From NCBI RefSeq assembly GCF_000374645.1, contig NZ_KB894807.1, forward strand, positions 62,001 through 126,000: a stretch of 64,000 bases of DNA, in the 5' to 3' direction. This document shows, piece by piece, positions 33,102-37,602 of the stretch. A program made the position numbers and the translations under genes. The notes beneath the pieces are model-generated. The model made no database searches. It saw only the letters and a program-made list of their open reading frames with translations, and was not told the DNA's origin. The stretch comes from Arhodomonas aquaeolei DSM 8974 (GTDB lineage Bacteria > Pseudomonadota > Gammaproteobacteria > Nitrococcales > Nitrococcaceae). Positions within the stretch are counted from its first letter, which is position 1. Each line of letters starts with the position of its first letter.

Positions 33102-33572
33102 CTATCGCGTCACGCGGGCTCGTGTCCCGCCGGTGAGTTCGGGCAGCGCCGAGGGCGCCACGGGGAAGACCGCGAACGGCGAGCCCGCCGCGGCCCAGAC
33201 ACGCTCGAAGCGCCACAGCGCGTCGTCCAGCCAGCAGCGCAGCCTTTCCGGATGGCCTACCGGGGGGACACCGCCGATGGCGAAGCCGGTATGCTCGCGC
33301 ACGAACGCGGCATCCGCGCGGCCGATGCCCTCGCCGGCGAGCTCGGCCAGCAGCACCTCGTCCACGCGCCGGTCGCCGCTGGCGATGACCAGCAGCGCAT
33401 CACCGCTGTCGACACCGCGGAAAACCAGGCTCTTCGCGATCTGGCCGACGTCCACGCCCAGCGCCGCGGCGGCCTCGGCCGCGGTGCGGGTGGACTCGTC
33501 CACCGACTCGATGGTGACCTCGCGGCCACGCTCGGCGAGCGCCCGCGCCACCCGTTCAGGTCCCTTCGCCAT
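33102..33572 (-). CDS. YbaK/EbsC-family aminoacyl-tRNA deacylase
   Basis: A 156-residue protein of the YbaK/ProX editing family, which hydrolyses mischarged tRNA in trans. It contains AALGVDVGQIAKSLVFRG with the substrate Lys, LVIASGDRRVDE and the GFAIGGVPPVGH motif. GGAGG precedes the ATG by six bases. The start lies 17 bases inside the end of the TadA-GNAT gene, implying coupling. Whether it edits Cys-tRNA-Pro, Ala-tRNA-Pro or another substrate cannot be told. Confidence 0.92.
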   Translation of the reverse strand: MAKGPERVARALAERGREVTIESVDESTRTAAEAAAALGVDVGQIAKSLVFRGVDSGDALLVIASGDRRVDEVLLAELAGEGIGRADAAFVREHTGFAIGGVPPVGHPERLRCWLDDALWRFERVWAAAGSPFAVFPVAPSALPELTGGTRARVTR

Positions 33573-34551
33573 TCTCGTCCTCCGTGTCCAGCGGCAGGGT
33601 CAGTATGCGCTGCGGCCCCGCCGGTCCGCCGTGATAGAGCGCCCCCGTGTCGCGGAAACCGAAACGCCGGTACGCCGCCTCGGCCTTGTCGTTGCGCAGG
33701 TTCACCGTCAGGCTCAGCCACCGATAGCGCCGGGCCGCGATCGCGACGATCCCGCGCAGCGCCCGGGTCGCCACACCCCGCCCCTGATGACGGCGGTCGA
33801 TGCGCAGCCCCTCCAGCCAGGCCTCGTCGCCGCGCCGTCCGGGATAGTCCACACCCTGTACCGGCGGCACCAACGCCATCAGCCCCACCGGCCGGCCGCC
33901 GGCCTCGATGCCGTACAGCGCCTCGGCATAACCCTCGCGGAAGTGGCGCCGCATCAGCGTCGGCGCGTCGCTCACGAATGCCCCCTGGCCCTCGCCCACC
34001 GCGACGCCCTCGTAGCCGTGGGCATTCTCCGGGGTCAGCCGGACCAGCCGCACCGCCGGCCGCGAGGCGGCGCGCCGGGCACGGAAGAAGCGCTGCAGCC
34101 GCTCGCCGCAGGCATCGGCCATCACCCCGCCGTCGACCTGCAGGCGATGATTGTGACTGGCGTGCCCGTGCAGCGCCAGCGCACCGCCGCAGGCGCCGGT
34201 CTTCGGGTCCGCGGCGCCGAAGACCACGCGGCGCACCCGCGCGTGGACCAGCGCCCCCACGCACATGGGGCAGGGCTCCAGGGTCACGTAGAGCGTGGCG
34301 TCGGGCAGGCGGTAGGCGGCACGCCGACGGGCGGCGTCGCGCACCGCCACGATCTCCGCGTGGGCCGTGGGGTCGTGGTCGGCGATGGGCCGGTTCCAGC
34401 CCTCGCCGATCACGCTCCCGTCGCCGGCGACCACCACCGCCCCCACGGGCACCTCGCCCGCCTCGGCGGCACGCTCGGCAAGGGCCAGGGCGCGGGCCAT
34501 GAAGCCCTCGTCCGCCGCGGCGCCGGCCTCGGATGACGCGTCGTCGTTCAC
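33556..34551 (-). CDS. Fusion of a TadA-like deaminase and a GNAT acetyltransferase
   Basis: A 331-residue two-domain protein. Residues 15-160 are a zinc nucleoside/tRNA-adenosine deaminase domain with His64-Ala-Glu66 (HAE) and Cys94/Cys97 (PCPMC), and read like a full TadA (GEVPVGAVVV, TLEPCPMCVGAL, FGAADPKTGACG), which makes inosine at tRNA wobble position 34. Residues 168-325 are a GNAT domain with the acetyl-CoA loop HQGRGVA at 255-261 and NDKAEAAYRRFGFRDTG. The start is GTG and has no clear ribosome-binding site. It is first in a five-gene leftward group. I am sure of both domains; the target of the acetyltransferase is unknown. Confidence 0.9.
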   Translation of the reverse strand: MNDDASSEAGAAADEGFMARALALAERAAEAGEVPVGAVVVAGDGSVIGEGWNRPIADHDPTAHAEIVAVRDAARRRAAYRLPDATLYVTLEPCPMCVGALVHARVRRVVFGAADPKTGACGGALALHGHASHNHRLQVDGGVMADACGERLQRFFRARRAASRPAVRLVRLTPENAHGYEGVAVGEGQGAFVSDAPTLMRRHFREGYAEALYGIEAGGRPVGLMALVPPVQGVDYPGRRGDEAWLEGLRIDRRHQGRGVATRALRGIVAIAARRYRWLSLTVNLRNDKAEAAYRRFGFRDTGALYHGGPAGPQRILTLPLDTEDENGEGT

Positions 34552-34899
34552 GGCACCGCGGGGACGGCCCGGCCGCCGACGGACATCACACCCCGCCCGG
34601 TCGTCAGCTGGTCACCCAACCCGGCATGGTCAAGGGGTTTCACGGTGATCGACCCGGGATTCATAACGTCGCTTTGCCATCAACGGCACACATCTTCTGC
34701 TGGCGTGGGAGAGGGAGCGCTTCGCGGGGAGACGACTCTGCTCGACACCGTCATCAATCGGCCTCAAGGATACAGGAAGCCGGCGGGCGTTGTCCGCCGC
34801 CCCGCCCCCGTCGCGCCCGGTAGCAATCCCGTTCAATACACCGGCCGCGCGGCGTTCCAGCCTGGCCGGCACGAGATCAAGACACCGAGGACATCCCCC
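34552..34899. other. 348-base gap between TadA-GNAT and the LysE exporter
   Basis: Divergent promoter region. It has lower GC at 34640-34780 than its surroundings, and an open frame that lacks coding character. A short GGCGG/CCGCC hairpin lies near 34781-34800. I recognise no RNA gene or riboswitch consensus in it. Confidence 0.4.
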
Positions 34900-35490
34900 A
34901 TGACCGTGACCCTGTCGCTGTCCATGGCCGCCTTCGCACTGGCGGCCTCCCTTTCCCCCGGCCCGGTGAACCTGGTGGCGCTGAGCGCCGGGACACGGCA
35001 TGGATTCCGGGCTAGCCTGCGCCATGTCACCGGCGCGACGGTCGGCTTCACCCTGCTGCTGGTGCTGATCGGTCTGGGCCTTCACCGGCTGATGGTCCGC
35101 TGGCCGGGCATCATCGAGGGGGTACGCTGGGCCGGCGTGGCCTTCCTGCTCTACCTGGCCTGTCGCCTTGCGGCGGACGACGGCCGTCTGGAGAGGACCG
35201 ACCCCGCGGCGGCGCCGTCATGGCTGGTGGGCGCGACCATGCAGTGGCTCAACCCCAAGGCGTGGCTGGCCTCGATGGCTGGCATGGGGGCCTATGCGGC
35301 GGGCGGTGACCTCGGCCTGGTGGCGTGGTTCGCAACCCTGTTCTTCGTGATCTGCTACCTGTCGATCGGCTGCTGGGCCTATGCCGGTGCCCACCTGAGG
35401 CGGTTCCTGGACCGTCCGGCGAGGGTGCGCCTGTTCAATCGCGGCATGGCGGTGCTGCTGGCGGCGAGTGCGCTCTATCTGCTGCTGTGA
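34900..35490 (+). CDS. LysE/RhtB-family amino-acid exporter
   Basis: A 196-residue membrane protein with five or six helices. The N-terminal SLSPGPVNLVALSAGTRHG is the LysE/RhtB signature, and WLNPKAWLASMAGMGAYA marks the second conserved block. It probably exports an amino acid or a related metabolite. The ATG at 34900 gives the standard N-terminus; no strong ribosome-binding site is visible. The 3' end overlaps the convergent AraC gene by 16 bases. LysE-type exporters are commonly paired with a regulator like this. Confidence 0.88.
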   Translation: MTVTLSLSMAAFALAASLSPGPVNLVALSAGTRHGFRASLRHVTGATVGFTLLLVLIGLGLHRLMVRWPGIIEGVRWAGVAFLLYLACRLAADDGRLERTDPAAAPSWLVGATMQWLNPKAWLASMAGMGAYAAGGDLGLVAWFATLFFVICYLSIGCWAYAGAHLRRFLDRPARVRLFNRGMAVLLAASALYLLL

Positions 35491-36308
35491 CCCGCGGCAT
35501 ACTGCCCCGGCGTGGCCGCCTGCAGACGCTTGAAGGTGCGCTGGAAGTGTGCCTGATCGGCAAAGCCGCAGTCCGCGGCGACCTCGGCGATGGGACGGCC
35601 ACGGCGCAGCTGGCGACGAGCGAACCGAACGCGCCGGTCGGTGAGGAAGGCATGGGGCGTCAGCCCGAAGTGGGCCTTGAAGCATCGCACCAGGTGGGAG
35701 CGGGACAGGCCGGCGGCACGGCAGATGTCGTCCAGCCCGATGGCCTCCGTACAGTGGGTGTCGATGTAGTCCGCCGCGCGACGCAGACCGAGGGGGTCGC
35801 TACCGGATGGTGACATCCTCGGTGTCAGGCAGCGCTGCATCTCGACGACCAGCGCGGTGGCCTCGGTCTCCATGGCCAGGCGACCGGCGTCCGGATCGAA
35901 GAGGGTGTCGCAGAGGGTCGTCAGGCGCCGATACAGGGCCGGGTGGCGACTCGAGCGGGCAGTGTATAGCTGGACGTCGAGATGGCCGGGCGCACCGAGT
36001 TCCCGCTGCAGTGCGCCGAGCCAGGCGGTGTCCAGGTAGAGCATGTCGTACGACCAGGGGCGCTCGTCGATGGGATTGCAGGCATGCACCGCTTCGGGAT
36101 TCATGACCACCACGGTACCGGGGGCGACCGTTTCGGCATGGCCCTGGTTCCAGTACGTGCTGTTGCCGCCGGTAACCGCGCCGATGGAGAAGCTCTCGTG
36201 GCTGTGCCTGGCGTAGCAGACACGCCGGCCGTCCGTGACCCGACGGGCCTCGAGGAAGGGCAGCGCCGGATCACGCCAGAAGCGCGGATGGTCGTGACGA
36301 AGGCTCAT
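35475..36308 (-). CDS. AraC-family transcriptional regulator
   Basis: A 277-residue regulator: an N-terminal cupin-like sensing domain (ARHSHESFSIGAVTGG, VVVMNPEAVHACNP) and a C-terminal double helix-turn-helix (IGLDDICRAAGLSRSHLVRCF ... PIAEVAADCGFADQAHFQRTFK). The ATG at 36308 follows GGGAGG at five bases. It converges with and overlaps the LysE exporter gene, which it probably controls. The effector is unknown. Confidence 0.92.
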   Translation of the reverse strand: MSLRHDHPRFWRDPALPFLEARRVTDGRRVCYARHSHESFSIGAVTGGNSTYWNQGHAETVAPGTVVVMNPEAVHACNPIDERPWSYDMLYLDTAWLGALQRELGAPGHLDVQLYTARSSRHPALYRRLTTLCDTLFDPDAGRLAMETEATALVVEMQRCLTPRMSPSGSDPLGLRRAADYIDTHCTEAIGLDDICRAAGLSRSHLVRCFKAHFGLTPHAFLTDRRVRFARRQLRRGRPIAEVAADCGFADQAHFQRTFKRLQAATPGQYAAGHSSR

Positions 36309-36497
36309 GGGGCCCTCCCGGATCGATGGACTACAGCCTATGCGGTATCGCCGGGAATGGCGAGCCCACACCGTGGACCAGGCGGCCGACAATTCCGATC
36401 TGGAGTCTATCGAGAAACATCAGGTGTAGGGCTTTCTGCCCTGCTGATACCATACCGCTCTTGAAGATGATCCCGGAACTGCTGGCAAGGAGCCGAG

Positions 36498-37367
36498 TTG
36501 GACACTGACAATCGCCCCTTGAGCGCACTGGAGCGATACCACGCCCGTTCGATTCATCTGCGCCTGATCCTCTTCAAGTGGCTTGCCCTGTTCTTCGGGG
36601 TTGTCCTTACGCTTCTCGGTCTCATGCTGCCTGTGGCATTTGCTTTCGACAGGCAGAGCGTTCCCCTTCCACTGCTCCTCCTCCTCGTCCTGCTGGACCT
36701 CGTTATCATAGCGCTGGGCCTTTTCATTACCGCCCATGGGCTGTGGCGGGATACAAAGCTGAGGGAAACAGCGACCCAGCTGCATGGCAAGCTGACCGAG
36801 AAGAAGCATACGGTGGTCAACCCCAATACCGGCAGCCGCACCACCCATCGCCTGTACTTTATCGACGATATTCAGATCTCCTGGCCGTCGGGATCCGAGA
36901 CTGTCTACCTCCCGCTGGTCGGCCGTGACATCGAACTGACGGTCGCAATGATCGATGTGAAAAGCCGGAACAGGCTCAAGGCGTTACGCCAGCGCGTGGG
37001 TATCGACAAGCTCGCCGGGCCCGGGAAACACCCTTCGGGGATCGCGGTCGTACTCAACTACCGGCAGGCAGTCAATATCCACGGGGTGCTCGATAAATAT
37101 GGACGCAATTACCTGCTTGGCTATCAGCTCAGGTGGGCCATCGGGGCCGGCCTTTTCGTGGCACTGACCTTTTTCCTCCTGATGCAGCCCTACACGTTAA
37201 CCTTTCTCAGCCAGACCAATTTTCTCCTGATGCTTCTGGTGCTCATCGGTTACGCGATAGGAGGGGCCCTAGCCATGGGCCTCGTCATTGAAGGTTACCA
37301 GAAGCTGCGCAAGCGGCTTGATCCCGACTATGACGATACGCCCCACGAGGAGCGGCTGAAGGGATAA
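36498..37367 (+). CDS. Unknown membrane protein, low-GC gene
   Basis: A 289-residue protein I do not recognise. It has four predicted helices in two pairs: about 25-50 and 57-80, then about 210-232 and 240-265. Between them lies a cytoplasmic or periplasmic domain of about 125 residues (HRLYFIDDIQISWPSGSETV, LNYRQAVNIHGVL). The C-terminus is charged. The TTG start has a perfect AAGGAG five bases upstream. GC and codon use are plainly lower than in neighbouring genes, with T/A-ending codons frequent, suggesting recent acquisition. It stands alone between the AraC gene and guaA. Confidence 0.8.
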   Translation: MDTDNRPLSALERYHARSIHLRLILFKWLALFFGVVLTLLGLMLPVAFAFDRQSVPLPLLLLLVLLDLVIIALGLFITAHGLWRDTKLRETATQLHGKLTEKKHTVVNPNTGSRTTHRLYFIDDIQISWPSGSETVYLPLVGRDIELTVAMIDVKSRNRLKALRQRVGIDKLAGPGKHPSGIAVVLNYRQAVNIHGVLDKYGRNYLLGYQLRWAIGAGLFVALTFFLLMQPYTLTFLSQTNFLLMLLVLIGYAIGGALAMGLVIEGYQKLRKRLDPDYDDTPHEERLKG

Positions 37368-37602
37368 CTGGTGACTCCGATCCACGGAAACACCGCTTCA
37401 TTCCGTTCCGGCGGCATCGGACCGCGGTCACGGATGCCCCCGCCTGGCCTGCAACCCATTGCTCGTGCGTACGCCCCCCGGCAGTCCTTCGAACGCTCCA
37501 GCGGGACCGTTCCCGATGCGATCTCCCCTGTTTGAAACATCGCCGATTCCCGGAACGACACACCCTCGCCCGGCGGATCTTCAAGCCGCTCCCGACGTGT
37601 AA

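Follow-up and report, generated by a model that had tools for sequence, protein, structure and literature searches.

An apparently rare fusion of the tRNA adenosine deaminase TadA to a GNAT acetyltransferase domain in Arhodomonas aquaeolei

In the genome of Arhodomonas aquaeolei DSM 8974, one open reading frame encodes a TadA-type deaminase followed by a GNAT acetyltransferase, which raises the questions of whether the two enzymes are truly joined, how they came to be joined and what the second one does there. The frame was examined within a window of 64,000 nt (the whole stretch of DNA that was analysed), and the features of the locus are collected in Table 1. In a mechanical frame list the fusion is a single 331-residue frame at window positions 33556-34551 on the minus strand with a predicted GTG start, and the coordinates given in an earlier note on this DNA are correct. 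The frame from stop to stop has 351 codons and no internal stop; no Shine-Dalgarno-like stretch was found by eye before the GTG. That it holds a full TadA and a complete GNAT domain, as the earlier note had proposed, is borne out by the motifs (HAE at residues 64-66, PCPMC at 93-97 and HQGRGVA at 255-261, all found where they had been placed) and by family matches: MafB19-deam at residues 15-160 (E 1.3e-35), dCMP_cyt_deam_1 (E 1.1e-30) and Acetyltransf_1 at residues 198-299 (E 8.9e-14; 52.2 bits against a cut-off of 20.7) in Pfam, and the TadA equivalog in NCBIfam (197.7 bits against a cut-off of 150). Codon usage, taken from five genes of the window, preferred the fusion frame to both shifted frames in 12 of 12 sliding stretches of 50 codons, the junction included, and third-position G+C, 0.93 for TadA and 0.88 for the GNAT part, falls in the range of eight neighbouring genes (0.73-0.95). 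The fusion of the two proteins is real, and apparently it is rare.

Table 1. Features of the fusion locus, in window coordinates
Feature	Position	Strand	Evidence
YbaK/TTHA1699-like aminoacyl-tRNA editing domain protein	33102..33572	-	PF04073, E 1.2e-25
Fusion stop codon	33556..33558	-	
GNAT N-acetyltransferase domain, about residues 166-331, Y[HL]GGxAGPQ family	33559..34056	-	
GGAGG, likely ribosome-binding site of the YbaK-like gene, within the last codons of the fusion	33579..33583	-	by eye
Junction, residues 161-166 (AASRPA), from FFRARR of TadA to the first GNAT strand	34054..34071	-	
TadA domain, about residues 1-165, predicted tRNA-A34 deaminase, complete, with the zinc/catalytic motifs and FFRARR in its C-terminal helix	34057..34551	-	

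The TadA half was compared with an alignment of 40 TadA rows, in which H64-A65-E66, P93, C94 and C97 are invariant, as are F155, F156 and R160 of the FFRARR stretch at the TadA C-terminus. None of the 48 positions conserved at ≥95% is altered in this half, and of the 64 conserved at 90% one is. The fusion as modelled by AlphaFold2 (mean pLDDT 82.4, pTM 0.76) has the C-terminal helix of TadA at residues 145-163; 13 of the 15 ten-residue blocks between residues 11 and 160 average a pLDDT of at least 95, and the best match of this half in the PDB is E. coli TadA (rmsd 1.0, TM 0.92 by target). A search of the genome with the MafB19-deam family, bearing on the earlier note's proposal that a second stand-alone tadA be looked for, led to three places: the fusion, a small deaminase with 75 bits, half the TadA cut-off of 150, and RibD, with 375.5 bits against 156.35 and a RibD_C domain. 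No second TadA was found in this search, and the fusion is the sole TadA found in the genome. On contig C16 the small deaminase overlaps a RES-domain protein whose gene comes after that of an Xre/MbcA/ParS-type antitoxin; the arrangement (L002:1372-2847) is that of a RES-Xre-like pair to which a deaminase has been added. For the fusion, a defence deaminase was considered and rejected, PADLOC yielding a weak match to the deaminase motif alone (33.9 bits). The classical TadA substrate is tRNA-Arg with anticodon ACG, and a tRNA-Arg(ACG) gene was located in the genome by similarity search (locus L172). The TadA half is predicted to be the tRNA adenosine-34 deaminase of this genome, converting A34 to I34 in tRNA-Arg-ACG. 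The earlier note had called TadA essential, which is too strong as a general rule: the tadA gene of Bacillus subtilis is reported to be dispensable (PMC10454642).

The GNAT half is most closely related to an orphan family of GNATs whose C-terminal signature is Y[HL]GG[PAS][AV]GPQ. A scan of named genomes for this family found 162 stretches with the pattern and 138 relatives. The loci of the best 80 were kept; these come mostly from Vibrio, Photobacterium and their kin, and also from halomonads, Lysobacter, Luteibacter, Marinomonas, roseobacters and others. According to the fusion model, about three residues separate the C-terminal helix of TadA (to residue 163) from the first GNAT strand (from residue 167). 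GNAT homology begins six residues past FFRARR, within one residue of the start of many stand-alone members: the column of A166 holds Met in 19 of 40 aligned relatives, and that of V167 holds V, I or L in 35 of the 40. On the other side, 61 other TadA genes (77 loci, 16 of them duplicates) end 0-30 residues past FFRxRR. The two homologies therefore meet end to start, which fits the loss of a stop between neighbouring genes and suggests, as the most likely origin, a stop-loss fusion of tadA with an adjacent, horizontally acquired orphan GNAT gene. V167, encoded by GTG, was considered as the old start codon and rejected on the composition of its column and the position of the Met one residue earlier; an annotated GTG start at this column occurs in a Salinivibrio record only, and no Shine-Dalgarno-like stretch for an internal start was found by eye before V167.

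The distribution of the fusion was assessed from both halves. TadA was found in 0 of the 80 GNAT-family loci (best 80 of 138 relatives, up to 5 kb on either side). A GNAT profile of 41 rows, the window among them, matched 32 of 398 genomes of the phylum at E 1e-15, own genome included; the open frame at the match has 351 codons in the window and 148-284 codons in the remaining 31, too short for a TadA-GNAT fusion. The GNAT half matched 2 of 23 genomes of its own family (own included, the other at just E 6e-4) and 5 of 369 genomes of the class at 1e-6 (own included). Such patchy occurrence fits an acquisition of the GNAT gene from outside. The whole protein matched 47 of 54 genomes of the order (E 1e-30) and 334 of 369 of the class (E 1e-25), own included in both, and among the matches listed all except that of the window stop at or before query residue 217; at a laxer cut-off weak separate GNAT matches were obtained in 5 of 59 relatives (E 2e-5 to 8e-4, frames of 157-202 codons). 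Among plasmids, 0 of 53 matching records reach 80% coverage of the whole protein. No second TadA-GNAT fusion was found among the 61 TadA genes, the 80 GNAT loci and the genomes of the order, class and phylum (with no congener among them), so that the fusion is known from one genome alone; had TadA been joined to a dissimilar GNAT, these searches would show it only among the 61 genes followed to their ends. A literature search at the level of titles and the beginnings of abstracts found no report of a TadA-GNAT fusion.

Whether the GNAT half is still an enzyme was judged from its conserved residues. Against 87 relatives it retains QGxG, LTVNxxN, Y294 and GGxAGPQ, and it keeps 31 of the 42 columns conserved at ≥70%, departing at 11; the family rows were gathered by their C-terminal signature, which biases the conservation of the signature upward. 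The GNAT acetyl-CoA loop motif is Q/R-x-x-G-x-G/A, and the loop H255-QGRGV-A261 retains the Q and both Gs that its relatives conserve. Modelled alone, the GNAT half reached a pLDDT of 92.3, with acetyltransferases as its top PDB matches. A dead remnant lacking the CoA loop, which the earlier note had named as one of two findings that would overturn its reading, is ruled out by the retained QGxG, together with the kept signature and the confident fold model. In the model of the whole fusion, built on an alignment of TadA rows only, the GNAT ten-residue blocks average a pLDDT of 36-85, which makes the relative arrangement of the two domains unreliable.

The GNAT half is at the same time the most divergent of 38 aligned rows, with a mean identity of 0.303 (others 0.325-0.437). 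It keeps 19 of 22 positions conserved at ≥95% and changes three (D229P, G245W and R247E), the largest number in any row; of the positions conserved at 90%, 3 of 25 are changed, as many as in one other row. In the models the three changes sit just after the strand of residues 220-228 and within the strand of residues 243-251, on the presumed acceptor side, judging from GNATs in general. The pairing of P229 with D rests on an adjacent one-residue gap; G245W and R247E lie in a stretch free of gaps up to D252. The GNAT half may thus be altered rather than dead, or possibly weakened, either losing its activity or doing something new.

The explanation that we consider probable is an ordinary working TadA joined by stop loss, through a very short linker, to an independent N-acetyltransferase. 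The GNAT domain would probably still bind acetyl-CoA and probably acetylates a small molecule or a protein, independently of deamination, and the three near-invariant positions changed on the presumed acceptor side suggest an altered specificity. A minor but appreciable chance is left for a GNAT half that is a drifting passenger, folded, with catalysis lost or weak, of no benefit and harmless to TadA. Its divergence, with three near-invariant residues replaced, and the occurrence of the fusion in one genome alone would be expected of a passenger, but the frame is intact with native codon usage, the CoA loop and the C-terminal GGxAGPQ are retained, and the GNAT model is confident.

A further explanation makes the acetyltransferase tRNA-directed, as the earlier note had proposed on the strength of the next gene, with a moonlighting link between inosine-34 formation and acetylation as its alternative. 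TadA would hold the GNAT domain at the anticodon, where it would acetylate tRNA or aminoacyl-tRNA together with the YbaK-like protein. The YbaK-like gene overlaps the fusion by 17 bases, and GGAGG lies in the end of the fusion six bases (by eye) before the ATG of that gene, so that co-translation is likely. The next gene is YbaK-like in its PF04073 domain, and the solved structure that it matches best is TTHA1699; the more specific identity of a YbaK Cys-tRNA(Pro) deacylase did not hold, the protein scoring 46.5 bits, under the NCBIfam equivalog cut-off of 153.25.

A conserved tadA-ybaK pairing was looked for and rejected: the YbaK-like gene was found in 0 of 20 other tadA regions (E 1e-8; four of the regions cover just 3.5-5 kb), in 0 of the 80 GNAT-family loci (best 80 of 138) and in 2 of 59 genomes, own included. 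Likewise, the LysR, AraC, LysE, YnfA/UPF0060 and HIT proteins of the window had no match in the 20 tadA regions at E 1e-8. In relatives guaA was found within about 5 kb of tadA, often adjoining it, in 15 of 16 larger tadA regions and was not detected in the stretch covered by the sixteenth; in the window, LysE-type, AraC-type and unassigned frames (34552-37602) stand between guaA and tadA. The pairing of the YbaK-like gene with the fusion looks local, and a role as its partner is not supported.

The GNAT family itself occurs in varied surroundings across the 80 loci, the largest groups holding 4 of 160 mechanically called neighbour frames and 83 of the 160 remaining ungrouped. The toxin of a toxin-antitoxin pair was rejected for this family, its members being without a widely common neighbour. 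In two Photobacterium loci (L090:3864-5252 and L094:4047-5435) a PhzC/PhzF-type enzyme carries a C-terminal GNAT of the Y[HL]GGxAGPQ family, so that the family joins unrelated enzymes. On a plasmid of Neorhizobium galegae (L043:1622-3237) a GNAT frame of the same family shares bases with a PLP-dependent, cysteine synthase-like gene, and stops occur before the GNAT end when the frame is read through. In three roseobacter loci (L077, L083 and L085) the GNAT, with its start estimated, apparently abuts the end of a common upstream gene, a layout that could give rise to a fusion.

This diversity of partners argues against a common tRNA role of the family. GNATs that acetylate tRNA are of the TmcA and TacT/AtaT kinds, families expected to be represented in Pfam and NCBIfam, and a tRNA-acetylating toxin of Salmonella is presumably a GNAT as well. 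No tRNA-acetylating family appeared among the Pfam and NCBIfam matches of the fusion at E 0.001. A linker of about three residues in the model, the suggested co-translation with the YbaK-like gene, and the changed acceptor-side residues, which a new substrate would suit, are on the side of a tRNA-directed GNAT, as is the precedent of the Salmonella toxin, which is reported to act through acetylation of tRNA (PMC4942678). Against these stand the rarity of the YbaK-like gene beside tadA or the GNAT family and the unrelated genes that related GNATs adjoin or are fused to. The proposal found no positive support in the varied GNAT surroundings, the PhzF fusions and the unconserved YbaK-like gene, and we give it a small chance, kept alive by the shortness of the linker and the altered acceptor side.

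A bolder version, in which a GNAT domain re-specialised through its acceptor face and its tethering to the TadA helix acetylates a translation target (the edited tRNA, its aminoacyl group or a bound protein) and the fusion is a wobble-editing enzyme of two activities co-translated with a trans-editing deacylase, is very improbable. Least probable of all is a sequencing or assembly artefact concealing two overlapping or adjacent genes: there is one assembly only and the junction spans few codons, so that a single wrong base could conceal a stop, but the common frame of both halves and the codon bias across the junction make an indel unlikely, and the genome is rated 100% complete and 0% contaminated.

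The fusion is a natural experiment in which a second enzyme has been loaded onto a central enzyme of tRNA modification. Provided that the protein is produced as the frame predicts, TadA can bear a further domain of some 165 residues on its C-terminal helix, which would be of some use to builders of TadA-based editors. Were the GNAT half to act on tRNA, it would provide a new kind of coupled wobble modification, which is at present a guess.

Compared with known systems, the fusion is like TadA of E. coli (1z3a) and the S. aureus TadA-RNA complex (2b3j) in its whole domain, its zinc/catalytic motifs and its FFRxRR helix, but it bears a GNAT tail of about 165 residues where the 61 other TadA genes stop within 0-30 residues of FFRxRR. 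With the mostly stand-alone Y[HL]GG[PAS][AV]GPQ GNATs it shares full-length homology, the CoA loop, LTVNxxN, the signature and about the same N-terminal register; it differs from them in its attachment to TadA, seen in 0 of 80 loci otherwise, and in D229P, G245W and R247E. The Photobacterium PhzF-GNAT proteins have the same GNAT family as their C-terminal half, with a PhzC/PhzF-type protein as the N-terminal partner there and a deaminase here. SpeG and the ribosomal S18-alanine acetyltransferase share the GNAT fold with the C-terminal half at 19-21% identity in the fold search, which implies no family membership, and its best sequence match to a SpeG-type chain is at E 6.2e-4.
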